Of a stretch of DNA of 44,695 nucleotides, positions 14,769 through 44,695 are shown in pieces; position 1 is the first letter of the stretch, and the number at the start of each line of letters is the position of its first letter. The stretch lies in IMG/VR virus record IMGVR_UViG_3300030406_001980, positions 1-44,695 of that record. One strand, 5' to 3'. The DNA comes from a virus. Under the pieces are notes generated by a model that had not been told where the DNA came from, searched no databases, and worked only from the letters and a program-made list of their open reading frames with translations. The position numbers were made by a program, and so were the translations under genes.

Positions 14769-14983
14769 CTTATTCTCCATACTCGTAACCCACGGATATT
14801 CTTCTCTATCACAATTTTGTAGGCTATATTAATATCAAGCTCTTCTGCTTTACGTTTTATTTCTCTTTGTAGTTTTATACAAGAAAGACAAGGTAGGAAA
14901 AAACTTGTACCCACCTTAAAATCACTCCAACGTATTTTTATTACAGCATCACCTATGTGTATCTCAGATAAGTTACCACTCAT
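14765..14983 (-). CDS. Small conserved protein, unknown function
   Basis: A 72-residue protein at the end of the leftward operon. Its start overlaps the stop of the primase-helicase gene (ATGA), which supports it as real. It contains two cysteines in a CLSC arrangement near the middle, between an N-terminal IGDAVIKIRW strand region and a charged helix (KLQREIKRKAEELDI). I do not recognise the family. Two cysteines alone are too few for a zinc site unless it dimerises. Its 3' end overlaps the opposing virion gene by 4 bases, leaving no room for a terminator. Confidence 0.6.
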   Translation of the reverse strand: MSGNLSEIHIGDAVIKIRWSDFKVGTSFFLPCLSCIKLQREIKRKAEELDINIAYKIVIEKNIRGLRVWRIS

Positions 14984-17865
14984 TTAGGTGCGTCCTTCCC
15001 CAAAACTCTATCCATATTTAATTGTATAGAACTAACTGGAGTGGTGCTGATATAACCTTTACCCAATCTCTTAGACACTTTATCAGCTATTACATAACCC
15101 ATCTCTTTTAGTCTTGCAACCATAGCATTTGCAGATACTCTACCTTTTAAAAACTCTACAAAATCTCTTCTGTTTATAAATATAAATCTTGTATCTGGTT
15201 CTTGTCTTACATAAATAATAGATGATCTAGGTATCATATCAGGCTCACCCACTGCCTCACGTTTATCATCATCATTAAATGTATTCTCTACACGCTTGTC
15301 TATCTTGCTATTTATCGTAAGAGTGTTAGGGCCTCTAGATATCAAATACTCACCTAGTATCTGTGTATCGTTTTCATTAAGTGGTATAGTTTCAGCTTTA
15401 GCTCCAGCTAGTATATCCATAACTCGCTGATAAGTTTTATCATAGTCGAAATCCCACAACTTTAATTTATTAGCATAACGTATACCTAAGAAACCCATAG
15501 CACAGATAGATGCCCAATATCTTCCCTGTTTATTAAGATTGCCTTCTTCTCTAACCTCTCTAGTCAATGCATTAAGATCATCCTGTGTTGAAGATTTATT
15601 AGTCATAACATGCTGAATAAAAGGAACACAAGCTAATCCGTTATTACGAAATAATATATTAACTAAATCTTGAGTCTGCCCATCATCAAGTGTGGTAGGA
15701 AAGTTCTCTAAATCAAACTGTAATAGTCGTGCTAGTTCTGGTGCAGAGTTTTTACTATGAGTTTTTATTAGCTGTGTAAAATCAGTGTTTGATGCAGCTA
15801 TTGTCATACCTTTCCAACGAATGTAATTATCTCTCTCCCTGTTCTCACTACCCGCTAATCTGTTAGGTGCTTCACCCTCAGACATACCATAAGCTATTCG
15901 GGATGCCTCGGCAGGTTCTACATCTGTAAACTCATCTATGGTCAGAGGTACAGAGTTGTATTCTGCTCTTCTCTGCCACATAGAATTTATTGTATCCTTA
16001 CCTTTCATCATCAATCGTGCTGGATGACCATAGATTGAATTGATAGCTATTAAAGTGGATGTCTTGTTATAACCACTACTATCCGATCTAAGATTGATTA
16101 AAGCACCTTCAATATTACTAAAAGCAACTAAAGGGGATGCCAACCCAAGGGCTAAAACAAATCGTCTTAGCTCCTCTCCTTCAGGTTGGTATAACTTATT
16201 TATTGCATATGTCCAATCTTCTAACTTACCCATTTGGGTAAACCTATCTTTGTTTATAATAGTTATAGGAGATTTAGGTGTTTCTAATACATCCGTTGCT
16301 GTTATCAATCTCTCCCCTAATACAAACTTCAAAGGTTTCTCTGAATATATTTCTTCTGTCCACCCAAAGTTAGGATAAGTTTCCTCTGCTGGTAATATCC
16401 TCTTAAGGTGACCCATGTATTTTTGTAAAAATATCATAACTTCTTTCATTTGATGATTTGCAAATCCGACTTCAAAACCTAAAACTTTTTGTAGTTCTAC
16501 TGGAGAACTCATTTTCCATACTGGCATAAGAAAAGACTTCGTACCCTCATGTGGTAGAGTATATTTTATCTCCACCATGTGACCTTCTTTCCTGTCAACT
16601 AATCTTCTAGAAATCCACAGTGGGTCTTCAGATATAGGAGTATCAGCATTACCCCCAGTTCCTTTTCTCCATATAATATTATCTTCAATATAGTATGCAC
16701 TGAAGTATGGACTGTCTGGTAGTTCAGGTTGTTCTTCTACATGTAGCTCTGTACTGGACAATGTCTGTGAAACATGTTCCGTGAAACTTTCTCGCACTTG
16801 CTCGACCGCAAGTTGTTTTAGAGGATGTAGTTTACCTAGAGATATAGGACTATTTATCTCCCCTTTGTTAGTACAGCTCTTACATAAATCTTCTCTACCA
16901 CAATGAGATGCCATTGTCTTACATAGATAAGGTTTTAATGTCTTACCTAGTTTCTTTTCTGTTTCTAATTTATTATATCCATCATAGTTCTCTGAGAGTT
17001 TGTGCATCCAAGCATCTTTATCCTCACAAAACTTAATAATAGATAGCGCTGCTCTCCAAGCTGGTTCAGTTTGTTCTTTTTGATTATTATATAATTCTAA
17101 TATTTGGTTACATCCATTACCCTCTAATGACCTATCTATTATCTGTTGAAAACTAAATTTATTATTAGATAGTATTTTTTCAAACTCATCATCTTCTTCT
17201 ACTTCTTTTTTGGTAGGTTCTTTCTTAGTTGGTATTATCTTTCTATAATATTTAAATGGCGCTGGTGTAGGTAATTGCTCTGATATAACTCTTGCTTTTT
17301 TATTAGCTTTTAAATTCTTTGTATCTGGCATTCTGAGATACGCAACACTATTAGTCATAGAACCAGAATCTACTTTTAATTCTGAAGCCTCTACAAACTC
17401 TTTAAAGTCTGTTGCTAACTCATCCCATTCTTTGGTATCTACTTCCTCTTTCAGTGGCCAATATAAATGATACCCATTACCAGAGGATACCCATATTGGA
17501 TTCTTTAATTTATCTGACTCAAACTCACTTAGAAAATTGCTAATTGATTGTCTCGCATCTGCGCTACTTTCATAACTTATCGTAGTATTCTTTTTACCTA
17601 CGTCAATATCCATAAACAGACATCTAACTGCTGTGCAATTATCTTGTTTTCTTTTATCTTTAGATAATCTACCTACACTAAAATAAACATTTAAATCTTG
17701 TTCAGAATAACTATTAGCTTTATCTACTAATTCATCTATGGTATGTAAATACTCTTCTTCCATTTTGGAACTACCCAGTTCCATTTTACCAAGACAATAA
17801 AAACTGTTTTCTACATGAGTGGGTAAGACATTAGATAGAAATTCTTTAACAGAAATATTCTTCAC
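14980..17865 (-). CDS. Primase-helicase: AEP-like primase domain plus DUF927-type ATPase
   Basis: A 961-residue replication protein. The start is GTG with GGGAG upstream. The N-terminal third looks like an archaeo-eukaryotic primase: FMDID with Asp86 and Asp88, SSGNGYHLYW with His133, and a later LRMPDTKN block. A Cys cluster (CKTMASHCGREDLCKSC) follows near residue 310 and may bind zinc. The middle is a DUF927-like ATPase: a Walker A-like segment DSSGYNKT at residues 595-602 (Lys601) and Walker B TIDEF with Asp644 and Glu645. The C-terminus resembles a winged helix. Phages with this architecture use it in place of separate primase and replicative helicase. The Walker A glycines are replaced (see findings). 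Confidence 0.8.
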   Translation of the reverse strand: MKNISVKEFLSNVLPTHVENSFYCLGKMELGSSKMEEEYLHTIDELVDKANSYSEQDLNVYFSVGRLSKDKRKQDNCTAVRCLFMDIDVGKKNTTISYESSADARQSISNFLSEFESDKLKNPIWVSSGNGYHLYWPLKEEVDTKEWDELATDFKEFVEASELKVDSGSMTNSVAYLRMPDTKNLKANKKARVISEQLPTPAPFKYYRKIIPTKKEPTKKEVEEDDEFEKILSNNKFSFQQIIDRSLEGNGCNQILELYNNQKEQTEPAWRAALSIIKFCEDKDAWMHKLSENYDGYNKLETEKKLGKTLKPYLCKTMASHCGREDLCKSCTNKGEINSPISLGKLHPLKQLAVEQVRESFTEHVSQTLSSTELHVEEQPELPDSPYFSAYYIEDNIIWRKGTGGNADTPISEDPLWISRRLVDRKEGHMVEIKYTLPHEGTKSFLMPVWKMSSPVELQKVLGFEVGFANHQMKEVMIFLQKYMGHLKRILPAEETYPNFGWTEEIYSEKPLKFVLGERLITATDVLETPKSPITIINKDRFTQMGKLEDWTYAINKLYQPEGEELRRFVLALGLASPLVAFSNIEGALINLRSDSSGYNKTSTLIAINSIYGHPARLMMKGKDTINSMWQRRAEYNSVPLTIDEFTDVEPAEASRIAYGMSEGEAPNRLAGSENRERDNYIRWKGMTIAASNTDFTQLIKTHSKNSAPELARLLQFDLENFPTTLDDGQTQDLVNILFRNNGLACVPFIQHVMTNKSSTQDDLNALTREVREEGNLNKQGRYWASICAMGFLGIRYANKLKLWDFDYDKTYQRVMDILAGAKAETIPLNENDTQILGEYLISRGPNTLTINSKIDKRVENTFNDDDKREAVGEPDMIPRSSIIYVRQEPDTRFIFINRRDFVEFLKGRVSANAMVARLKEMGYVIADKVSKRLGKGYISTTPVSSIQLNMDRVLGKDAPK

Positions 17866-30574: not shown

Positions 30575-31771
30575 CTAATCTCCTATTCTAAAATGTTTAC
30601 CAACAGTGGGAACTTCGTGACTGCCACCCTCTGAAATTACCCAAAGTATTTTGTCAGTCTGCCAACCATTACCCCAACCATCCACATACCCATCTGTGAA
30701 TACGACAATGAAATCGTATTGGATTTTGTGAGTCTTGATGTAGTCAACTACACACTGCACATCTGTACCACCACCACCCATTGGTTTGGTCTTGTTCTGA
30801 ATGGTGTGATACTCACTTGGGTCATAATGCTCATGTCTGTGTACTTCTGTATCCCAATACATGATGTCAACACTCTCAGGAACTGTCTCAGCAAATGCGT
30901 TCATACCAATAGCTAGACTTTGCTTGGCATCATCACTCGAAATACTACCACTCATGTCAAAGGCAAATATACCTCTACCAATCTGTGGTTTCATGTATGT
31001 GGGAAACACAAAGTCATCATCAGCATACTGCTTTCTACGATTAGGTCGTGAGTAACTTGGCTCGTCACCACCCTTGACCAAACCACTGACGAACTGCTTG
31101 AGTACATCTTTGAGTGTCACCTTGGGCTTGACAGAATCAGATAAGTCTCTGTTAGTCTTACCAGCTTTCTTACCACAAAGAATGTTACCCTCAAAGATCG
31201 CTTGGGAAATCTCCTTGGCAATCTCGTCTTTCTCCTCTGCTGACATACCCTCAGCACTCTCCCAATCATGTGCATCAAGAGTTTTTAAGTCACCAACTCC
31301 ACCTATGCCTTTACCATCCTGTGATTCGCCATCCGACTGGGTGAGATCACGACATATGTCATGTACAGAAACACCACGATACTTCTCATCAAGCAACGCA
31401 CCATCAGGCAACTTCACATACCCATCTGTTGATTGGTCTAGGTCGTGAATGATTAGATTGATGTTGTAATCTTCTGCACAGTTGACAACGTGATGACCAA
31501 ACTTCTTGACTAGGTCTTGATAGATAATGAAATGCTTAAATGCTTTGTGCAGATTCTCATGCAACATCAGACCACGCAACTTAGCATCAGACATATCTTC
31601 ACAGAACTTTCTACCATAGATGACATCCACCCCATTAGTACAAGCTGTTGGGCAATCGTCATCAACAACCACCTTACCGAACCTCAGTATACTCGCATAC
31701 AGCATTGTGTGTTCATGTACAGACAGTGATGATGTATTCTTGATTAGTCTTTGTTCGACAGTCAATTGCAT
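30575..31771 (-). CDS. DUF2201-like protein: HExxH metallopeptidase plus VWA domain
   Basis: A 398-residue protein with two parts. The N-terminal domain has HENLH at residues 71-75 (His71, Glu72, His75) in LRGLMLHENLHKAFKHF, the zinc motif of DUF2201-type metallopeptidase-like domains. The C-terminal domain is a von Willebrand factor A-like fold with IFAFDMSGSIS (DxSxS metal-adhesion site) and GGGGTDVQCVVDYI, then FIVVFTDGYVDG. Proteins of this type pair with MoxR AAA+ ATPases, and the adjacent gene is one. The pair probably acts as a chaperone-like remodeller of a target complex. Start has AAGGAG 9 bases upstream. Confidence 0.85.
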   Translation of the reverse strand: MQLTVEQRLIKNTSSLSVHEHTMLYASILRFGKVVVDDDCPTACTNGVDVIYGRKFCEDMSDAKLRGLMLHENLHKAFKHFIIYQDLVKKFGHHVVNCAEDYNINLIIHDLDQSTDGYVKLPDGALLDEKYRGVSVHDICRDLTQSDGESQDGKGIGGVGDLKTLDAHDWESAEGMSAEEKDEIAKEISQAIFEGNILCGKKAGKTNRDLSDSVKPKVTLKDVLKQFVSGLVKGGDEPSYSRPNRRKQYADDDFVFPTYMKPQIGRGIFAFDMSGSISSDDAKQSLAIGMNAFAETVPESVDIMYWDTEVHRHEHYDPSEYHTIQNKTKPMGGGGTDVQCVVDYIKTHKIQYDFIVVFTDGYVDGWGNGWQTDKILWVISEGGSHEVPTVGKHFRIGD

Positions 31772-32937
31772 TAGTCATTCTCCTTTTTGTCAGGTGTAGC
31801 AAGGAAATCATTCTTGGCACACCATTGTTGGAATGTAGGTAGAGTGACAAGTGCATTGTATACTTTGAGTGCATCTCGACTAGCTTTGGACTTTAGTCTG
31901 AGTAACTTGAAAAACATATCTTGACATTCAATCGCTAGTCTCTCAACGTAAGTCATCACTTGTTTGTAGTTACCACCACTGATATTGTTCAGACATCTGT
32001 ACACCATCATTATCATTGGCACACCATTGACTGGAACTTGTACAGTGCTTGGGTCACTCTCGACAGCATCCCAACTTGGTAACTCATTAGATGTCTTGAG
32101 CATCTGAAACAACTCATTGGCAAAGGGTGTACCACACGCACCACGCACTAGGTTGTAAGTGATAGCATCACCATTGACCTTGTACTGGTGCATCCACACA
32201 CTTGCTCTCTCCAGTGTTCGTGCGTTGACAAAACCATCCTTGGAACTCTCAACCTTTGGGTCATATATGTAAGGATTGTGAGCCACTCGCTTGTCAAGAT
32301 TGTCAATGTCCATGTCATCTAGGTCTGTGTAACTCTCACCAATCTTGTCAGAATACTCGTTGCACATAAGCAGAATAGTCTCATGCCATCCTTGGGTTGC
32401 ACCATACTCACCTATCTGCTTACCACTTGCTTTACCCATATGAATTCTAGTGATTCGACTTAGGAATGTACCATCCAGTGCATCACCAAACCCCTCATCA
32501 GATAAGTTGCCTGTCATCCATACACGGCTCTCAGGGTGCATCTTCTCCTCACCAATATACCTCTCGTATGCCATAGACGAACCCTCTTTCTGAACTACTA
32601 GTGGTGCTTTGGGTAATTCGTCAATGATAAGTATCCCAGCCTCTTTCACAAGCATATTGTATAGTCTCGTGCGTAAGACCATATCCAACGTGCCTGTCTG
32701 CTTGTTGAGTACAGGTATAGCTAGATCACCATCTTTCATAGTCTTACCATTGAGAAACACCACGTTGAGTTTTCTCCCATTGTTAGATAGTTTCTCAGCG
32801 ACTTGGTTCATCAGTGATGTTTTGCCAATGCCATTGTCACCCTCTATCAGAATGGTTTGCTCAGGTGGTGCGTTCTCTAGAACTAACTGAACTTCTTCCC
32901 TAGATAACTTAGGGCTATGTATATATTGATTTTTCAT
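31771..32937 (-). CDS. MoxR-family AAA+ ATPase
   Basis: A 388-residue AAA+ ATPase. I chose ATG at 32937 because GGAGG lies 5 bases upstream; the first ATG (32949) overlaps that site. Walker A is GDNGIGKT (residues 33-40, Lys39), Walker B is ILIIDELPKAP (Asp106, Glu107), and a sensor-I-like VWMTGNLSDEGFGD follows. The MoxR subfamily works with VWA proteins in ATP-driven maturation or inhibition of partner complexes, and the next gene encodes exactly such a partner (one base overlap). MoxR/VWA pairs are uncommon in small-genome podophages. Confidence 0.88.
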   Translation of the reverse strand: MKNQYIHSPKLSREEVQLVLENAPPEQTILIEGDNGIGKTSLMNQVAEKLSNNGRKLNVVFLNGKTMKDGDLAIPVLNKQTGTLDMVLRTRLYNMLVKEAGILIIDELPKAPLVVQKEGSSMAYERYIGEEKMHPESRVWMTGNLSDEGFGDALDGTFLSRITRIHMGKASGKQIGEYGATQGWHETILLMCNEYSDKIGESYTDLDDMDIDNLDKRVAHNPYIYDPKVESSKDGFVNARTLERASVWMHQYKVNGDAITYNLVRGACGTPFANELFQMLKTSNELPSWDAVESDPSTVQVPVNGVPMIMMVYRCLNNISGGNYKQVMTYVERLAIECQDMFFKLLRLKSKASRDALKVYNALVTLPTFQQWCAKNDFLATPDKKEND

Positions 32938-32985
32938 AGTATCCTCCATTAATAAATAATATCATAAAATAACAAAAAGTACAAC

Positions 32986-34504: not shown

Positions 34505-34684
34505 CTATCCTCCATATTTTTGTTTGAGTTGATTGAGTTGACTATCTGTTGCTAGTCGCTTGGGTGTTGCTTTGACTATGATTGCCCTTGGTGGTTTCAC
34601 AGTGTAGTCCTTGGCTTTGAACATGGCTATAAAACTTTCGTACTTCTTAGGGTCACTCAAGTTTGGGTATTGCTTTGACTTCAT
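34505..34684 (-). CDS. 59-residue basic protein, first gene after the 34.8-kb promoter
   Basis: A small gene on the minus strand. GGAGG is 9 bases before the ATG at 34684, and the reading frame ends 4 bases before the next gene's start. The protein is basic with KKYESFIAMFKAKDYTVKPP and PKRLATDSQLNQLKQKYGG. It is the promoter-proximal gene of the leftward early-type operon, the place where phages often put host-takeover proteins. No family recognised. Confidence 0.7.
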   Translation of the reverse strand: MKSKQYPNLSDPKKYESFIAMFKAKDYTVKPPRAIIVKATPKRLATDSQLNQLKQKYGG

Positions 34685-34700
34685 AGGTATGTACCTCCGT

Positions 34701-34732
34701 AATAGTTTTTGTTCCCACTATAAGTATAGTGG
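34701..34732 (-). repeat. Palindromic element, copy 1
   Basis: On the plus strand AATAGTTTTTGTTCCCACTA leads into a palindrome at 34715-34732 (arms CCACTATA and TATAGTGG, AG in the centre). It lies in the 5' leader of the leftward operon, about 50 bases downstream of its promoter. Two further copies lie at 35364-35397 and 36478-36511, with the same T-rich arm. Confidence 0.6.
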
Positions 34733-34785
34733 CTATATTTTATGCTAGTAAAAATGTAAAAAAAATTTCTCACTGACATATATAT

Positions 34786-34814
34786 ATTATAACATATCTA
34801 ACAAAGAATGTCAA
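34786..34814 (-). promoter_or_regulatory. Consensus sigma70-type promoter of the 34684-20107 operon
   Basis: On the minus strand TTGACA (34809-34814), 17 bases, then TATAAT (34786-34791), preceded by TGT (extended -10). All elements match the sigma70 consensus, so host RNA polymerase should use it strongly. It points at the leftward operon starting with the gene at 34684; the leader is about 95 bases and includes palindromic element copy 1. Confidence 0.9.
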
Positions 34815-34850
34815 GTTTTACTCAATAGTAACAAATATATACATAGGCAT

Positions 34851-34893
34851 ATTGTATCTGTTGTATTCTATTGTAATCTAATTGTTGTTACAC
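34851..34893 (-). repeat. Iteron array A (inverted partner of array B)
   Basis: Read on the minus strand it starts GTGTAACAACAA (plus-strand 34882-34893), then repeats TACAA-AGA units at about 10-base spacing, including TAGAATACAA (34861-34870). Array B at 35177-35220 has the same start and TAGAATACAA in the opposite orientation. The two frame an AT-rich core. Confidence 0.6.
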
Positions 34894-34947
34894 ATTCAAT
34901 ACAATCTCTAGCCCAATAAAATTAAGGGTTTAGGGTTTGTGGATACC

Positions 34948-34965
34948 CATTTGTTTTTACAAATG
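34948..34965. repeat. Short hairpin
   Basis: CATTTGT and ACAAATG form a 7-bp stem with a T4 loop in the non-coding hub. It could be a structural element or incidental in AT-rich DNA. Confidence 0.25.
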
Positions 34966-34970
34966 TAAAT

Positions 34971-35015
34971 TTTCAGGTATGTACAGAAATCAGCTTTCAG
35001 GCTCGTACAAGAATC
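34971..35015 (+). repeat. Pair of 21-bp imperfect direct repeats
   Basis: Units at 34971-34991 and 34995-35015 share TTTCAGG, then GTACA and AATC at the same positions, 24 bases apart. TTTCAGGTAT also recurs at 35270-35279 inside the first hairpin repeat. Protein-binding sites are possible. Confidence 0.45.
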
Positions 35016-35176
35016 GACAGGTTGCCGTGAGTCGAAAAAATATAAACTTATGCTCAAACACAAATACACCAAAGACCAATCTCATTATTTTCTATATATA
35101 TTATCTATTGTAAAAACAATATATATATAAAAGGGTTTTTTGCCAGTATTGGTGGGGGTTGGAGATTGTTTTTGAG

Positions 35177-35220
35177 GTGTAACAACAAATCGTATACAAA
35201 TAGAATACAATAGGTACAAT
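35177..35220 (+). repeat. Iteron array B
   Basis: Starts GTGTAACAACAA (35177-35188), then TACAAATAGAATACAATAGG-type units with TACAA repeated three times and TAGAATACAA at 35201-35210. It is the inverted counterpart of array A, about 300 bases away, with an AT-rich segment between them. Confidence 0.6.
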
Positions 35221-35250
35221 TAGAATTTGATACTTTTTGTATTGCATACA

Positions 35251-35280
35251 GCGATACCTAGTGACTGGTTTCAGGTATAT
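35251..35280 (+). repeat. Hairpin repeat, copy 1
   Basis: GCGATACCTAGTGACTGGTT onward: stem ATACCT (35254-35259) pairs with AGGTAT (35273-35278), with the loop containing ACTGGTTTC. Copy 2 at 35448-35477 has the same loop and a stem kept by a paired change (see findings). Confidence 0.55.
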
Positions 35281-35363
35281 CTCTACAAGGGTGTGTCCAC
35301 TAGGTGTACCAGCAGCCAGAGGGTATCATGTGAGTATCTACATAGGTATATACACAGATACTA

Positions 35364-35408
35364 GAAGTTTTTCTTCCCACTTTACAGTATAGTCGGAAGT
35401 TTTTCTTC
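35364..35408 (-). repeat. Palindromic element, copy 2, flanked by 13-bp direct repeats
   Basis: CCCACTTTACAGTATAGTCG at 35376-35395 is a slightly imperfect version of the palindrome in copies 1 and 3. GAAGTTTTTCTTC occurs on both sides (35364-35376 and 35396-35408). No clear promoter lies next to this copy, so it may serve as a regulatory or structural site in the hub. Confidence 0.5.
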
Positions 35409-35447
35409 TAGGATATTTTCTCGCAGGGTAGACATATATTGCCTTGA

Positions 35448-35477
35448 GCGATATCTAGTAACTGGTTTCAAGATATT
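35448..35477 (+). repeat. Hairpin repeat, copy 2
   Basis: GCGATATCTAGTAACTGGTT onward: stem ATATCT (35451-35456) pairs with AGATAT (35471-35476). Relative to copy 1 one C-G pair has become T-A and the loop ACTGGTTTC is conserved. It lies just beyond the terminator of the 35529-36398 gene. Confidence 0.55.
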
Positions 35478-35484
35478 GTAGACG

Positions 35485-35519
35485 AAAAAAAACCCCCTAA
35501 AGATTTCTCTTTAGGGGGT
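35485..35519 (-). terminator. Strong intrinsic terminator of the 289-residue gene
   Basis: On the minus strand an 11-bp GC-rich stem (arms at 35509-35519 and 35492-35502, 6-base loop) is followed by eight T residues (plus-strand A run 35485-35492). It starts 10 bases after the stop codon of the gene at 35529, so it ends that gene's transcript and insulates the hub. Confidence 0.95.
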
Positions 35520-35528
35520 AAGGGGTGG

Positions 35529-36398
35529 TTACTCTTGATCTTCTTCAAGTTTAATTGGTTTGGTATCCCACATTGCTGTGGCTAGAGTTATGTTATAGTC
35601 TTTCTTTAACTCTTTACCATTTATCTTTTTAGTAGCTGTTAGTTTTGCTGTATTATTCCTACACTTCTTAAGGGCTTGTATTGCCTCTTCTTCAGTGACA
35701 TCAGGACTAAAGACATCTTGAACATTTTTTTGTTTCCAAACATCTCTACTTGTTAACTTAACATCTTCTTCAGTAAATGATTTTGTTGCATACCAAGTAT
35801 TAAAACCTGAGAAACAGATACTCTTTTTTCGCTTACCCTTAGTGCTATTGTTAAGGCGTACAAAATCGAAGTATTCTTTCAAGTTACCTTTCATTGTTTC
35901 CATTGGTATTGTTAACTGGCTTAAAGCAAAATTTTCCATTTGGCTTTTTAAAGCATCTTTAATACCAGCATCTTGCAGGGTTTGCATACTGGCTCTATAC
36001 TGTTTACCATGCATCTTGTATGTACTATCGCCAATACCTCTTTTAGCATTGGAACTTAGTGTAAACATATACATGATTCGCTGTACAAAACCTTTAGCTA
36101 TTAATTTCATAACACCAGCTTGATAAGATAAAAAGTTTTCAGATGCGTTACCTAAACTTTTTAAGCTAAATCTTTCAAAGGCTTTTTTAACTTCACCAGT
36201 TTTTTTATCTATAACTTCATTACCTTGATCGTCTGTAAGTACCGTATTTTCTATCTCTTCAGAGAATTGAAGATTAGTGTTATTACCATACTCATTAAGA
36301 TGTGATGTAATTTCACCATCTCTAAGAGTGTCATCAGTAGCTTTAGGTGCATTTTGTAAGTCAGCACCAATAGACTTATTATTAATTTCTTCAGTCAT
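35529..36398 (-). CDS. 289-residue protein, single-gene transcription unit, unknown
   Basis: A 289-residue protein that I do not recognise. It is Lys/Glu/Asn-rich with segments such as FERFSLKSLGNASENFLSYQ, then FVQRIMYMFTLSSNAKRGIG. A basic stretch STKGKRKKSICFSG precedes a Trp-containing NTWYATKSFTEEDV block. A possible nucleic-acid role is suggested only by charge. It is the only gene in the hub between the two arms and has its own promoter (36453-36461), GGAGG site and strong terminator. That isolation points to special timing or high expression. Confidence 0.75.
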   Translation of the reverse strand: MTEEINNKSIGADLQNAPKATDDTLRDGEITSHLNEYGNNTNLQFSEEIENTVLTDDQGNEVIDKKTGEVKKAFERFSLKSLGNASENFLSYQAGVMKLIAKGFVQRIMYMFTLSSNAKRGIGDSTYKMHGKQYRASMQTLQDAGIKDALKSQMENFALSQLTIPMETMKGNLKEYFDFVRLNNSTKGKRKKSICFSGFNTWYATKSFTEEDVKLTSRDVWKQKNVQDVFSPDVTEEEAIQALKKCRNNTAKLTATKKINGKELKKDYNITLATAMWDTKPIKLEEDQE

Positions 36399-36477: not shown

Positions 36478-36511
36478 GGTAGTTTTTCTTACCACTTTAC
36501 AGTAAAGTGGG
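36478..36511 (-). repeat. Palindromic element, copy 3
   Basis: GGTAGTTTTTCTTACCACTT runs into a perfect palindrome at 36492-36510 (arms CCACTTTAC and GTAAAGTGG around one A). It sits at the -35 position of the promoter for the 289-residue gene. Copies 1 and 2 are at 34701-34732 and 35364-35397. Confidence 0.65.
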
Positions 36512-36554: not shown

Positions 36555-36583
36555 TTGCACGCGGCGGCATCTATGTATATTAA
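36555..36583 (+). promoter_or_regulatory. Possible promoter of the rightward packaging operon
   Basis: TTGCAC (36555-36560), 17-base spacer, TATTAA (36578-36583), located 90 bases before the first plus-strand gene and just after a terminator-like hairpin. The match to sigma70 is partial, so this is a tentative call. Confidence 0.35.
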
Positions 36584-36637
36584 TCTGCTCAAATAATTTT
36601 AATTTTTTTGAAAAAACCCCCCCACCTCTTTTTTTGG

Positions 36638-36672: not shown

Positions 36673-37029
36673 ATGAAGACCTACGCCTCATTATTTTTTG
36701 TGCCTGTTATATTCTGGGCAGCTATTTATTTCACCTATACTCACGCTTGGAAGCTAGATGATTTAGACCCACATAAAAGATGTGAAGAGATATACCACCT
36801 TGCAGTACGATTTGCAGACATCAGAAACCACGACTTAATACCATCAATAAAAACAAATAGGATGCTAACCCCATTTGAACAAGACGTACTTCACGAGACA
36901 GACAGAAGAGTGGTAGAATTAATGAGTCTAAAACAAAGTAAACCTGAAAAGTACGAAGGGATGTTAGAAAATCCTAATGCTATTGGGCTACAGATATACG
37001 AAGAATGTCTATTCGATCACGGTTACTAA
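36673..37029 (+). CDS. Membrane-anchored small protein, unknown
   Basis: A 118-residue protein with an N-terminal hydrophobic stretch (residues 5-24, ASLFFVPVIFWAAIYFTYTH) that could be a signal anchor. A helical charged domain follows (LAVRFADIRNHDLIPSIKTN and later PEKYEGMLENPNAIG). It lacks a cleavage-like AxA motif, so anchoring is more likely than secretion. It is the first gene of the rightward arm. No family recognised. Confidence 0.65.
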   Translation: MKTYASLFFVPVIFWAAIYFTYTHAWKLDDLDPHKRCEEIYHLAVRFADIRNHDLIPSIKTNRMLTPFEQDVLHETDRRVVELMSLKQSKPEKYEGMLENPNAIGLQIYEECLFDHGY

Positions 37030-37506: not shown

Positions 37507-37702
37507 TAGGCAAGTAGGTGGAGACCACTATAAAAAATTAGAGATACAAACGTGGGATTATATTATTGCAAATAATATAGGTTACATGGAAGGAAACATT
37601 ATAAAGTATGTTTCTCGTTGGAAAGAAAAAGGTGGAGAGAAAGATTTACTTAAAGCAAAACATTATTTAGATAAACTTATAGAGAATATAGAGATTGGCT
37701 GA
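37493..37702 (+). CDS. DUF3310-like protein
   Basis: A 69-residue DUF3310 (SaV-like) protein. ATG at 37493 is preferred to 37478 because GGAGG lies 8 bases upstream of it and would overlap the earlier ATG. The family signature is clear: VGGDHYKKLEIQTWDYI, GYMEGNIIKYVSRWK and DLLKAKHYLDKLIE. Members are widespread in phages and often called nucleotide kinase-like, but the function is not established. It overlaps the terminase small subunit frame. Confidence 0.88.
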   Translation: MNQNDRQVGGDHYKKLEIQTWDYIIANNIGYMEGNIIKYVSRWKEKGGEKDLLKAKHYLDKLIENIEIG

Positions 37703-38270
37703 GAAACTAAAAGTACACTTTGATAGTTCTATACCCTTACCAGAAAAGTTTGAGCCAGAAGAAATAAAAGATGACTTGGATTGGGCTAGGGTAGTTATTC
37801 GTACATCAGAACATATGTACGAGAAAGGTCTTATAGAAGATACAAGTGAAGAAGACAGGCACGAGGCTATAGAAATATTTAAAGGTATGGTTACAGGTGA
37901 TAGTAAGAACAAACCAAACCTTGACAAGACAACCAATGCTGTAGCGGCACACGTAGGTGCATTGCTTAATGAGTATGATAAACAAGCAGTCGATAGTGCG
38001 ACACAACTTCGTGTGTATATAACAAACAGATTAATTATAGAAAGTGACCATAAAGACCCAAAACAAAGAATGGCAGCGCTAGTTAATCTAGGTAAGATAT
38101 CAGAAGTTGGATTATTTGCTGAGAGAAAAGAAATTACAGTAACGCATCAAAGCACAGAGGATTTAGAAGCGCAGATTAAAGAAAAACTTGCAAAGATATA
38201 TGAAGTAGAGGCAGAAGTTATAGAAGATAAAACTGATGACACCAGCAGAGATACAGAAACTAAAGAGTAA
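37695..38270 (+). CDS. Terminase small subunit (candidate)
   Basis: A 191-residue protein directly upstream of the large terminase, overlapping it by 35 bases. The start is TTG at 37695; no ATG exists until residue 41. The N-terminus has KVHFDSSIPLPEKFEPEEIK, the middle has AVAAHVGALLNEYDKQAVDS and the later part has YITNRLIIESDHKDPKQRMA. These are typical of podophage small subunits that recognise and hold DNA for packaging. The acidic C-terminal tail (VEAEVIEDKTDDT) could contact the large subunit. Assignment rests on order and pattern. Confidence 0.7.
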   Translation: MAEKLKVHFDSSIPLPEKFEPEEIKDDLDWARVVIRTSEHMYEKGLIEDTSEEDRHEAIEIFKGMVTGDSKNKPNLDKTTNAVAAHVGALLNEYDKQAVDSATQLRVYITNRLIIESDHKDPKQRMAALVNLGKISEVGLFAERKEITVTHQSTEDLEAQIKEKLAKIYEVEAEVIEDKTDDTSRDTETKE

Positions 38271-39756
38271 TCTACACCTATTCTCTGAGTATGACAAAAT
38301 AGAGATACTAAAAACTCTAAGCGAGTTAAATAATCGCTCTGCGCAGAAAAAATCACAAGATAAATTCATACAATTTGTCAAAACTATGTGGCCTGAGTTT
38401 ATTTCAGGTCGTCACCACACCAAAATGGCAGAAGCATTTGAGAAAGTAGCAAGTGGTAAGATAAAAAGACTCATTGTTAACATGCCACCACGACACACAA
38501 AGTCAGAATTTGCGTCATATTTGCTACCAGCGTGGTTTTTAGGTAAATATCCAGCTAAAAAAGTGATCCAAACCTCTCATACAGCCGAATTAGCGGTGGG
38601 TTTTGGTAGAAAAGTAAGAAATTTAGTCAGTAGTGACGCATATAAGACGATATTTCCGACTGTTAACCTCCAATCTGACTCAAAAGCAGCAGGTAGATGG
38701 AACACTAACGCAGGTGGAGACTACTTTGCGATAGGTGTAGGTGGTGCTGTAACAGGTAAAGGTGCTGATTTGCTTATTATTGACGACCCACACTCGGAAC
38801 AAGAGGCAGTTATTGCTGAGACAAGCCCCGAAGTCTATGATAAAGTATATGAATGGTATACGTCTGGCCCTAGGCAGAGACTTCAGCCAGGGGGTTCTAT
38901 TGTCATCGTAATGACGAGATGGTCAAAACGAGATTTGACTGGACAAGTAATCAAGGCTAGTGCACAACATGGTGGGGATGAATGGGAAGTAATTGAGTTT
39001 CCTGCAATTATGCCTGAAGGTAATCCACTATGGCCTGAGTTTTGGAAGAAAGAAGAATTAGAAGCTCTACAAACGCAACTTCCTGTTGCTAAATGGCAAG
39101 CACAGTACCAACAAGCACCAACTTCTGAAGAAGGAGCATTACTCAAACGTGAATGGTGGAATGTGTGGGAGAGCGATAGCCCACCACCTTGTGAATTTAT
39201 AATACAATCTTGGGATACTGCGTTCTTAAAAACTTCTCGTGCAGATTATTCTGCATGCACAACATGGGGTGTGTTCTACCACACAGATGAAGATACAGGG
39301 CAACAAACATCTAATATAATTTTACTTGATGCGTATAGAAAGAGGATGGAGTTTCCAGAATTAAAAATAAAAACGCAAGAGATGTACAATGAATGGGAAC
39401 CTGATGCGTTAATCGTAGAAGCAAAAGCGGCAGGTGCGCCACTTGTATTTGAATTAAGAGCTATGGGTATACCTGTATCTGAGTTTACACCGAGCAGAGG
39501 AAATGATAAGATTGCGAGAGTAAATGCTGTTACAGATTTATTTGCGTCAGGGGTTATTTGGGCTCCAGATACAAGATGGGCGCAAGAAGTTATAGAGGAG
39601 GCCGCATCTTTTCCAGCAGGGGAGCATGATGACTACGTGGATTCAATGACTCAAGCGTTACTTCGATTTAGAAAAGGTGGATTTGTAAGATTGCATTCAG
39701 ATGAAGAGGATGAAGAAATACCTTGGTGGAAAAAACGTAAAGCAGCATATTATTAA
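38236..39756 (+). CDS. terL: Terminase large subunit
   Basis: A 506-residue packaging motor of the Terminase_6 type. The ATPase part has a Walker A-like NMPPRHTKSEF (residues 82-92, Lys89) and Walker B LLIIDDPH (Asp183, Asp184), followed by the coupling VIVMTRWSKRDL. The C-terminal RNase H-like nuclease has Asp327 in SWDTAFLK, Glu395 in IVEAKAAG and Asp465/466/469 in HDDYVDSMTQAL. It overlaps the small subunit gene and is 10 bases before the portal gene, the order expected for packaging. Confidence 0.97.
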   Translation: MTPAEIQKLKSNLHLFSEYDKIEILKTLSELNNRSAQKKSQDKFIQFVKTMWPEFISGRHHTKMAEAFEKVASGKIKRLIVNMPPRHTKSEFASYLLPAWFLGKYPAKKVIQTSHTAELAVGFGRKVRNLVSSDAYKTIFPTVNLQSDSKAAGRWNTNAGGDYFAIGVGGAVTGKGADLLIIDDPHSEQEAVIAETSPEVYDKVYEWYTSGPRQRLQPGGSIVIVMTRWSKRDLTGQVIKASAQHGGDEWEVIEFPAIMPEGNPLWPEFWKKEELEALQTQLPVAKWQAQYQQAPTSEEGALLKREWWNVWESDSPPPCEFIIQSWDTAFLKTSRADYSACTTWGVFYHTDEDTGQQTSNIILLDAYRKRMEFPELKIKTQEMYNEWEPDALIVEAKAAGAPLVFELRAMGIPVSEFTPSRGNDKIARVNAVTDLFASGVIWAPDTRWAQEVIEEAASFPAGEHDDYVDSMTQALLRFRKGGFVRLHSDEEDEEIPWWKKRKAAYY

Positions 39757-39766
39757 AGGATAAATT

Positions 39767-42124
39767 ATGGCTATAGATAAAGCAGTTCAGATCGGGGTAG
39801 CAACTGAAGCTGGAAAAGATATCGAACTAGAAGTTAAAGACGATAAAAATCCAGAAGAAGATGTAGCTATTGAAATTAACGATGATGGTACCGTAGATAT
39901 TAATCTAGGTGGTGAAGGTATTGATAGTCCTTTTGAAGGTGAGTTCGATCAAAACTTAGCAGAAGTTGTAGATACAGACACGCAAGAACAAATGGTTGAT
40001 GATTTAGTTGGTTTGTATGAAGCTGATGATGAGTCACGTTCTGATTGGAAAAAGACTTATGAAGATGGTCTAGAACTTCTTGGTCTAAAAATAGAAGAGA
40101 GAACTGAACCTTGGGATGGCGCATGTGGTGTATTTCATCCATTATTATCTGAAGCAGTTGTACGTTTCCAGTCTGAAGCTATCACAGAAACATTCCCCGC
40201 TGCTGGCCCAGTTAAAACAAATATTCTAGGTACAAACGATAGAGAGACTGAGAAAGCTGCTGAAGCTGTTCGTGATGATATGAACTATAGACTCACAGAA
40301 CAAATGACAGAATATAGACCAGAGCATGAGAGAATGCTATGGAACCTTGCAATATCTGGTTCTGCATTTAAGAAAGTTTATTTTGACCCAGCTCTAGGTA
40401 GACAGACAGCACAATTTATCCCAGCAGAAGATTTAGTTGTAGCTTATGGCTCATCTGATATTACAACTGCTAGTCGTGTAACGCATATTATGCGTAAATC
40501 AGAAAATGAAGTTAAATTTTTACAGGTTAATGGTTTCTATGCACCTGTAGACTTAGGTGACCCAGGGTTTATACGTACATCTATACAGAAGAAGAAAGAC
40601 GAAGTAGAAGGTGTAGACGTATCTGAGGATGATAGATATGAATTACTTGAGATGCATGTAGAGTATGATTTAGGTGAAGACCCAAATCAAATAGCTCTAC
40701 CTTATGTTGTGACTATTGAACGTAACTCTATGCAGATTCTTTCTATCTATCGTAATTGGAATCAAGAAGATAAACTAAGACGCAAACGTAATCATTTCGT
40801 ACATTATACTTATATACCAGGATTTGGATTTTATGGATTTGGACTTATTCATTTACTTGGCGGGCATGCTAAGTCTAGTACTTCTTTACTTCGACAGTTA
40901 GTTGATGCAGGAACTTTAAATAATTTACCAGGTGGATTGAAGACTAGAGGTCTTCGTATTAAAGGTGATGATACCCCCATAATGCCAGGAGAGTTTAGGG
41001 ACGTAGACGTTCCAGGTGGTAAGATTCTTGATAATATAACATTCCTCCCGTATAAAGAGCCATCACAGACTCTTTTGGCATTATTCCAAAATGTTGTTGA
41101 CCAAGGTAGAAGTATGGCAGCAATCTCTGACTTTAAATCAGTGGATTTAAATAGTGAAGCGCCTGTAGGAACAACCCTTGCAATACTTGAGAGGATGTTA
41201 AAAGTTATGAGTGCTGTACAGGCTCGTATGCATAACACCATGAAGATGGAGTTTAAACTTCTCAAAAATATTATCGAAGATAATACTGACAATCCAGTAT
41301 TAATAAAACAGTATTCTGATATAGAAGTTATTCCAGTTAGTGATCCTAATGCTTCAACTATGTCTATGCGTGTAGTTCAGTATCAAGCAGCTATTCAATT
41401 AGCACAACAAGCACCACAATTATATGATTTACCTAAATTACATCAGCAGATGTTACATACATTAGGTATTAAAGATGCAGCAAAACTTGTACCTACACCA
41501 GAAGATATGACACCGAAAGACCCAGTATCTGAAAATATGGCAATAATGACAAGTAAACCTGTCAAGGCGTTTCTTTATCAAGATCATAAAGCACATATTG
41601 AAACACATATGACAGCTTTACAGAACCCACAGATACAACAATTAATAGGTCAAAACCCTATGGCTAGAGCAATACAAGGCGCATTAATGGCACATATAGC
41701 AGAACATGTATCTATGCAATACAGAGGTGAGGTTGAGAAACAAATGGGTGTAGAGCTACCTCCACCAGATCAACCAATGCCAGAAGAGATGGAAACAAAA
41801 CTATCTCAATTAATGGCTAGAGCATCACAGCAGGTATTACAAGAATCAGCGGCTCAACAGCAACAAGCTCAAGCACAACAAGCAGCTCAAGACCCTATGA
41901 TTCAAATGAAACAAGCTGAATTAGCACTAAAAGAGGCAGAACAGCAGAGAAAAGCACAAAAAGATTTCGTTGATGCGGCACTTAAAAACGAGAAGATTGA
42001 GGCTGATAAAGCTATTGCTGGTGCTAAATTAGGGGTTGAATTAGCTAAAGAAGAGAAAAATACTGAGTTAGAAGGTATTAAACTTGGTTCAGAAATCGTT
42101 AAAAACATGAATAAGGGGAGTTAA
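39767..42124 (+). CDS. Portal protein, P22-type
   Basis: A 785-residue portal protein. The N-terminus is acidic. The core has ERTEPWDGACGVFHPLLSEA, SGSAFKKVYFDP and AEDLVVAYGSSD, which I recognise from P22-type portals. GFGFYGFGLIHLLGG and the LRQLVDAGTLNNLPGGLKTR block follow. The C-terminal 150 residues are Gln/Ala-rich helix (QQQQAQAQQAAQDPM) that would form the long barrel. It forms the ring through which DNA enters. RBS AGGA lies before the ATG, and the neighbour is terminase. Confidence 0.95.
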   Translation: MAIDKAVQIGVATEAGKDIELEVKDDKNPEEDVAIEINDDGTVDINLGGEGIDSPFEGEFDQNLAEVVDTDTQEQMVDDLVGLYEADDESRSDWKKTYEDGLELLGLKIEERTEPWDGACGVFHPLLSEAVVRFQSEAITETFPAAGPVKTNILGTNDRETEKAAEAVRDDMNYRLTEQMTEYRPEHERMLWNLAISGSAFKKVYFDPALGRQTAQFIPAEDLVVAYGSSDITTASRVTHIMRKSENEVKFLQVNGFYAPVDLGDPGFIRTSIQKKKDEVEGVDVSEDDRYELLEMHVEYDLGEDPNQIALPYVVTIERNSMQILSIYRNWNQEDKLRRKRNHFVHYTYIPGFGFYGFGLIHLLGGHAKSSTSLLRQLVDAGTLNNLPGGLKTRGLRIKGDDTPIMPGEFRDVDVPGGKILDNITFLPYKEPSQTLLALFQNVVDQGRSMAAISDFKSVDLNSEAPVGTTLAILERMLKVMSAVQARMHNTMKMEFKLLKNIIEDNTDNPVLIKQYSDIEVIPVSDPNASTMSMRVVQYQAAIQLAQQAPQLYDLPKLHQQMLHTLGIKDAAKLVPTPEDMTPKDPVSENMAIMTSKPVKAFLYQDHKAHIETHMTALQNPQIQQLIGQNPMARAIQGALMAHIAEHVSMQYRGEVEKQMGVELPPPDQPMPEEMETKLSQLMARASQQVLQESAAQQQQAQAQQAAQDPMIQMKQAELALKEAEQQRKAQKDFVDAALKNEKIEADKAIAGAKLGVELAKEEKNTELEGIKLGSEIVKNMNKGS

Positions 42125-44160: not shown

Positions 44161-44695
44161 ATGGCTTATCCAACTGTTGATGCTCCATACGGTTTAGTCC
44201 CAATTAATTTAATTGGTGGCCAACCTTATGCTGGCTCTACAAGGCAGATGAAGATTACTTCTAACTATGGCACTGATATCTTTAATGGCGATGTCGTCAA
44301 GCGTGCAGCTGACGGTACTGTCGAAAAAGAAGGAGGTACAGCCACAGTTACTGCCACAGGCGTAATTGGTGTTTTTGTAGGTTGCTCTTACACAGACCCA
44401 AATACAAAACAGAAAGTATTTAAGCAATATTACCCAGCTAGTACAGTAGCTACTGACATTATGGCTTATGTGGTCGATGACCCAGACGCTTTATTTAAAG
44501 TTGCTGTTGTATCTTCTGGTACAACTATTGCAGGAACCCCATACGGTTCAATCGGAAGTAACGCAGCATTAGTACAAAACGCAGGAAGCACCTCTACAGG
44601 TAATTCTAAAGTTGCTATTGGTAGCGTTAATACTACACTATCATTACCAATAAGGATCGTTGACGTAGTCCATGAGACTGAAGATGCATCTGGTA
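44161..44695 (+). CDS. Virion structural protein (3' partial; capsid/decoration candidate)
   Basis: An open frame from ATG 44161 (TTAGGAG upstream) to the window end, 178 residues visible and without stop, so it is absent from stop-to-start gene calls. It opens MAYPTVDAPYGLVPINLIGG and continues with QPYAGSTRQMKITSNYG and GVIGVFVGCSYTDPNTKQ. DIMAYVVDDPDALFKVAVVS is a beta-rich segment. These are familiar from marine phage head proteins. The location after the scaffold fits a major capsid or decoration protein, but which one cannot be decided from the part seen. Confidence 0.75.
   Translation, partial: MAYPTVDAPYGLVPINLIGGQPYAGSTRQMKITSNYGTDIFNGDVVKRAADGTVEKEGGTATVTATGVIGVFVGCSYTDPNTKQKVFKQYYPASTVATDIMAYVVDDPDALFKVAVVSSGTTIAGTPYGSIGSNAALVQNAGSTSTGNSKVAIGSVNTTLSLPIRIVDVVHETEDASG

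Follow-up and report, generated by a model that had tools for sequence, protein, structure and literature searches.

The iteron-type replication origins that have been described combine phased iterons, a melting core, sites for the integration host factor (IHF) and an adjacent early promoter, and since the iterons of plasmids are mostly direct repeats (PMC5043065), a mirrored arrangement of iterons is to be regarded as a variant. Here, we have analysed a record of 44,695 bases (IMG/VR record IMGVR_UViG_3300030406_001980, a contig of about 44.7 kb that we refer to as "the window") from a marine tailed phage of bacteria, and in particular a non-coding hub, where two mirror-image iteron arrays face each other across an AT-rich core. 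We consider it likely that this hub is an iteron-type origin of theta replication, located beside an early promoter; this reading, which was put forward as a candidate origin in an initial annotation of the sequence, is the best supported of those that we have weighed, as both the arrays and their spacing are conserved in related phages. Judged from its sequence, the hub would thus be of a known kind, but of a mirrored variant that appears to be new: the main text of a genome paper on phages of the HTVC023P type makes no mention of a replication origin (PMC9599517), and literature searches, with incomplete coverage, have not found this combination of elements described in such phages.

The hub resembles the origins of pSC101, R6K gamma, RK2, P1 and F in its helically spaced repeats and its AT-rich putative melting region, with IHF helping in pSC101 and R6K (PMC5043065); unlike in those replicons, the arrays of the hub face each other across the AT region, and no Rep protein has been recognised. 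The origin of phage lambda, which is served by the O protein, also has its iterons next to an AT-rich opening region, of about 40 bp, and is activated by transcription from an early promoter (PMC5043065). Its iterons form a single cluster inside gene O, whereas the non-coding hub carries two arrays that are set apart from each other, and no Phage_rep_O homologue has been found. In oriC of Escherichia coli, the melting region is located at one edge, while the core of the hub is located between the arrays, and DnaA boxes are missing from the hub. Like the hub, oriC has two arrays of opposite handedness, which there consist of initiator sites, and it is served by IHF as well (PMC5043065). The origins of satellites (P4 alpha, PLE RepA) are comparable in that they have replicon-specific repeats in a non-coding region, and the initiators of P4 and of SaPI have primase and helicase activity (PMC7145576); the repeats of the hub differ from those of P4 and PLE, and no RepA_N or alpha homology has been shown for the phage.

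The elements of the hub that are central to this comparison are the following:

34685-35528, no strand assigned: the non-coding hub, with no long open reading frame; on its left is the leftward early operon and on its right a leftward gene that we call the slot gene.
34851-34914, minus strand: left iteron arm, made of TACAA-type units about 10 bp apart, with GTGTAACAACAA on the minus strand.
35156-35220, plus strand: right iteron arm, an inverted copy of the left arm.
35083-35132, no strand assigned: AT-rich core, a putative unwinding element, with A or T at 45/50 positions.
34786-34814, minus strand: leftward early promoter, TTGACA-17-TATAAT, matching the sigma-70 consensus at 12/12 positions, with a TG before the second hexamer.

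The hub is flanked by a 59-aa leftward gene (34505-34684) and by the slot gene, a 289-aa leftward gene (35529-36398). Its two arms are 80% identical over 65 columns, in opposite orientation and with 241 bp between them, and they form the only minus-strand self-match of the contig at E<=1e-3 (E 1e-8); the score of their local alignment is 41, whereas 500 dinucleotide shuffles of the hub yield 14.8 on average and 23 at most. The 12-mer and the 10-mer that are shared by the arms (GTGTAACAACAA, TAGAATACAA) are each found a single time on either strand of the 44.7 kb, at the two arrays that had been claimed and in opposite orientation, and in density of (A/T)ACAA these same arrays rank above all other clusters in the contig (5 in 45 bp, with 3 in the next best cluster). 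The units are about 8-11 bp apart in both arms, i.e. they have the helical phasing of an iteron origin, and by nearest-neighbour energy no other 50-bp window in the contig is as unstable as the core, as is expected of a melting region. The initial annotation has been borne out in part: the arrays that share their starts in opposite orientation are real, and longer than it had proposed, and its ATTGT/ACAAT hairpin is present at about 35105-35118, while the core that it described as AT-only contains 5 G/C in 50, and what it listed as 21-bp direct repeats (34971-35015) is a weak, imperfect pair with 16/24 matches.

For the comparison with related phages, about 100 related loci have been gathered, using as queries the terminase and a 118-aa protein whose gene is located just right of the hub, and an array scan for oppositely oriented clusters of 6- or 7-mers has been conducted on 105 related and 125 unrelated virus loci, many of the 105 being too short to include the hub. 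The comparison has revealed mirrored arrays in about 15 related phages, in the corresponding position 2-3.5 kb upstream of the gene for the large terminase, with iteron words that differ between phages; a 6-mer scan score of at least 13 is reached by 10/105 related loci and by 0/125 unrelated loci, where the maximum is 12. Conservation of the arrays and of their spacing, which the initial annotation had named as a check, is thus found: alignment identifies mirrored arms in the loci L090, L094 and L009, with 235-256 bp between the arms, and about 12 more phages have arrays. In L094 (235 bp) and L009 (256 bp), the arms are made of a different word from that of the window. Besides these two, the word scan has identified arrays in L011, L036, L040, L046, L053, L061, L067, L071, L072, L073 and L074, with words such as AATGTTA, AATGTTC and TGTAAGA that are often 8-10 bp apart, and the arrays of L013 were recognised on closer inspection. 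A pattern search with an arm of the window (GTGTAACAACAAWTNGNNTACAA) returned one match, in an unrelated contig and apparently by chance; the iteron pattern of L009 returned 120 stretches, mostly unrelated, that served as negative controls, and pattern searches with the 345-aa, 289-aa and ATPase proteins found no relatives.

In L090, whose terminase is 95% identical to that of the window, the hub is located at the same place and can be aligned over its length, with conservation of the promoter, of two boxes that are listed further below and of the sequence before the right arm. The two arms of the closest relative are 83% alike, i.e. more alike than they are to the arms of the window; an arm compared with its own partner gives a score of 38 in the window and of 42 in L090, and arms compared across the two phages give scores of 13-22. 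As each arm matches its own partner best, the two arms change together within a phage, which is as expected if both of them were to serve one factor. The core is also recurrent: in 8/17 hubs (window, L090, L094, L009, L008, L061, L040 and L074), no other 50 bp of the locus is as unstable as the core, and in 12/17 the core lies within the lowest 0.2% of stability. L008 has weak arms, yet its promoter, boxes and melting core are present.

A near-consensus leftward promoter is located just left of the left arm in 12/17 hubs, compared with 4.5% of random windows, and the genes downstream of the promoter of the window include the helicase, the polymerase and the primase-helicase. The same promoter gives rise to the main rival explanation, which we consider unlikely: that the hub is concerned with transcription control only, its arrays being operators for a looping regulator of the strong leftward early promoter, and perhaps of the slot gene. 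Consistent with this, the consensus promoter is situated about 35 bp from the left arm, phage-specific palindromes adjoin the promoters, and the array word GTGTAA recurs in the spacer of the leftward promoter in both L009 and L094. A looping operator, however, does not require its arrays to enclose the least stable DNA of the contig, nor does it require the same inverted polarity across phages, and iteron origins are often autoregulatory too, the promoter-side features being compatible with an origin.

The IHF consensus WATCAANNNNTTR is enriched in the hubs, with 15 sites in the 16 hubs tested, compared with 0.94 expected; the sites are present in 10 hubs, usually between the inner and the outer iterons of the right arm, and are absent from the hubs of the window, L090, L008, L046, L036 and L074. 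In the 45.9 kb of Rhizobium phage RHph_TM3_14A, which was reached independently via its primase-helicase, there are just two exact matches to the IHF consensus; both are located in the corresponding gap, between EVB41_028/029 and EVB41_030, where they are inverted and 318 bp apart, with an AT-rich stretch between them. The array scan picked up no arrays in this gap. DnaA boxes (TTWTNCACA) number 2 in 16 hubs, compared with 0.8 expected, which is not the pattern of a DnaA-dependent origin of the oriC type.

The enrichment of IHF sites is also what would be seen at a phage attachment site. The attP of lambda is composed of arm sites, IHF sites and a core, with an overall size similar to that of the hub, and the mirrored arrays at a spacing of about 10 bp, together with the IHF sites around the core, resemble it. 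Nevertheless, Phage_integrase (PF00589) found no match in 13 records (the window, whose contig is incomplete, the hub records of 50-78 kb and the cultured relatives), while 14/14 controls were positive, and there is no tRNA in the 44.7-kb window; as no tyrosine integrase was found in these records, we regard an attP as very improbable.

If the hub is an origin, we infer that replication would start there in the following way. One phage-encoded initiator would bind both mirror-image arrays (34851-34914 and 35156-35220), and the bound arrays would wrap or bend the DNA, placing the 241 bp between the arms under stress, so that the AT-rich core would melt; loading of the DUF927 primase-helicase and of the phage's family A DNA polymerase could then take place. 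In many relatives, the IHF sites inside the arms may help the bending, while the early leftward promoter by the left arm, which would drive the replication operon, could couple transcription to the opening of the origin and to autoregulation. Two genes have been considered with regard to the initiator:

14980-17865, minus strand: DUF927 primase-helicase, a candidate replicative helicase or initiator.
35529-36398, minus strand: slot gene, encoding a 289-aa orphan protein that is hypervariable between close relatives.

The DUF927 protein is a candidate for the initiator because it is found in the large hub records G000, G001, G004, G005 and RHph_TM3_14A, but not in seven large records that lack the hub: among records of at least 44 kb, arrays are seen in 3/6 that have DUF927 (G000, G004 and G005), with related features in two more (G001 and W05), and in 0/7 that do not have it. 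In Pseudomonas phage Rollin, DUF927 is present and arrays were not detected. Regarding its annotation, EVB41_076 of RHph_TM3_14A (MN988472.1, L248:27240-30323) carries the label "putative integrase", which is probably wrong, since the protein is a homologue of the DUF927 primase-helicase.

The slot gene is present in 16/16 hubs examined. Between the window and L093, the terminases are 97% identical and the slot proteins 24% (L093:91-879), and between the window and L090, with terminases at 95%, similarity of the slot proteins is undetectable (L090:1040-1813); the slot protein has no family match, and its predicted structure, with a pLDDT of 36, is unusable. Shared iterons go together with shared slot proteins in L071/L072, L036/L073 and L053/L074, while no such pairing is seen in L009/L094 and L061/L071; as the iteron type is not consistently followed, we do not claim the slot protein as the iteron binder.

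Several observations weigh against an origin at the hub. Exact IHF sites and DnaA boxes are both absent from the window; no known initiator family (O/Rep) has been recognised among its proteins, Phage_rep_O being absent, and the slot protein does not stand out as the initiator either, because L009 and L094 share their iterons and have unrelated slot proteins. The parameters of the scans were picked after inspection of the window, several relatives with enough upstream sequence have no clear arrays, and none are clear in the examined regions of the cultured phages HTVC023P and HTVC027P. The cumulative GC-skew minimum, which the initial annotation had expected at the hub, is located outside it, at 36894, where the divergent genes switch direction, and the fourfold-site skew of the slot gene is uninformative. 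Between about 34.2 and 37 kb the curve is flat, and the minimum is about 2.5-3.4 kb from the hub in G004 and G005; as the skew follows the direction of the genes, it does not decide the position of the origin.

The surroundings of the hub have also been considered with respect to packaging. The large terminase gene (38236-39756) has an identity of 53-58% to its closest cultured relatives (phage 023Pt_psg01, DSL-LC04 and the Pelagibacter phages HTVC027P and HTVC023P) and is followed by the portal gene (39767-42124) and directly preceded by a putative small terminase gene (37695-38270). As the distance between the hub and the large terminase gene is about 3 kb, and as a terS gene is present in this neighbourhood in HTVC027P and 023Pt_psg01, the hub might be a packaging (pac) site that is bound by the small terminase. 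We think this highly unlikely, because the likely small terminase gene is located 2.5 kb from the hub and is well conserved in the nearest relatives (98% in L093, 88% in L090), while the iterons change quickly.

On the other side, the region between about 34.7 kb and about 15 kb contains leftward genes for a MoxR-like ATPase, a DUF2201 metallopeptidase/VWA protein, the family A DNA polymerase, a helicase, an exonuclease, a Gp2.5-like protein and the DUF927 primase-helicase. The pair of MoxR-like ATPase and DUF2201 metallopeptidase/VWA protein (30575-32949), near the start of the early operon, is retained in several relatives. When the contig ends are joined, the reading frame stays open, but its continuation is unlike the gene of the relatives; the contig is taken as unclosed because, unlike in relatives, the gene that is cut at the right end does not resume at the left one, and the part with the capsid genes and some of the tail genes is probably missing. 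The ends themselves (1-338 and 44161-44695) do not form the gene that is seen in relatives.

Additional elements are located in and around the hub:

34966-35015, plus strand: imperfect direct repeat with a spacing of 24, in part kept in L090.
35260-35273, plus strand: box AGTGACTGGTTTCA, one of two AGTRACTGGTTTCA boxes right of the right arm.
35457-35470, plus strand: box AGTAACTGGTTTCA, the second AGTRACTGGTTTCA box.
34715-34732, no strand assigned: palindrome CCACTATAAGTATAGTGG, located within the leader of the operon that runs leftward.
35376-35395, no strand assigned: related palindrome CCCACTTTACAGTATAGTCG, within the hub.
36491-36511, no strand assigned: related palindrome, upstream of the slot gene.
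35492-35519, minus strand: strong terminator of the slot gene, with a 12-bp stem and a T tail, which closes the right edge of the hub and insulates it.

The promoter, the two boxes, the three palindromes and the terminator are absent from the initial annotation. Clusters of ACTRGYWTC are confined to hubs of this kind among the loci searched; in the window, the boxes appeared to be covarying hairpins, but they are treated as DNA boxes because the stem is not conserved in L090, and an Rfam search for known RNA in the hub gave sub-threshold matches only. Several of these phages have their own palindrome of 16-20 bp, in 2-3 copies by the hub promoters (e.g. L090 at 232 and 887, L094 at 3179 and 3278), and these phage-specific palindromes look like operators of a phage-specific regulator. 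In L008, L078 and L082, which have otherwise unlike hubs, a non-coding block of 33 bp before the rightward operon (36567-36599) is shared with the window at 84-91% identity.

For uncultured lytic phages, it is seldom that an origin of replication is identified. If the hub is an origin, a layout that is recognisable in the sequence (mirrored iterons, melting core, IHF site and early promoter) would allow origins to be called in many metagenomic phages, and the co-change of the iterons and their initiator would become testable. More tentatively, and we would not count it as likely, these phages may form a family with a symmetric origin, whose two rapidly changing mirror-image arrays, on either side of the melting core, would together with the neighbouring hypervariable gene define types of replication specificity (incompatibility or immunity) that differ even at a terminase identity of 95-97%. 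The rapid turnover of the iterons and of the neighbouring gene among close relatives suggests that replication specificity is under selection, for example through competition between co-infecting phages.
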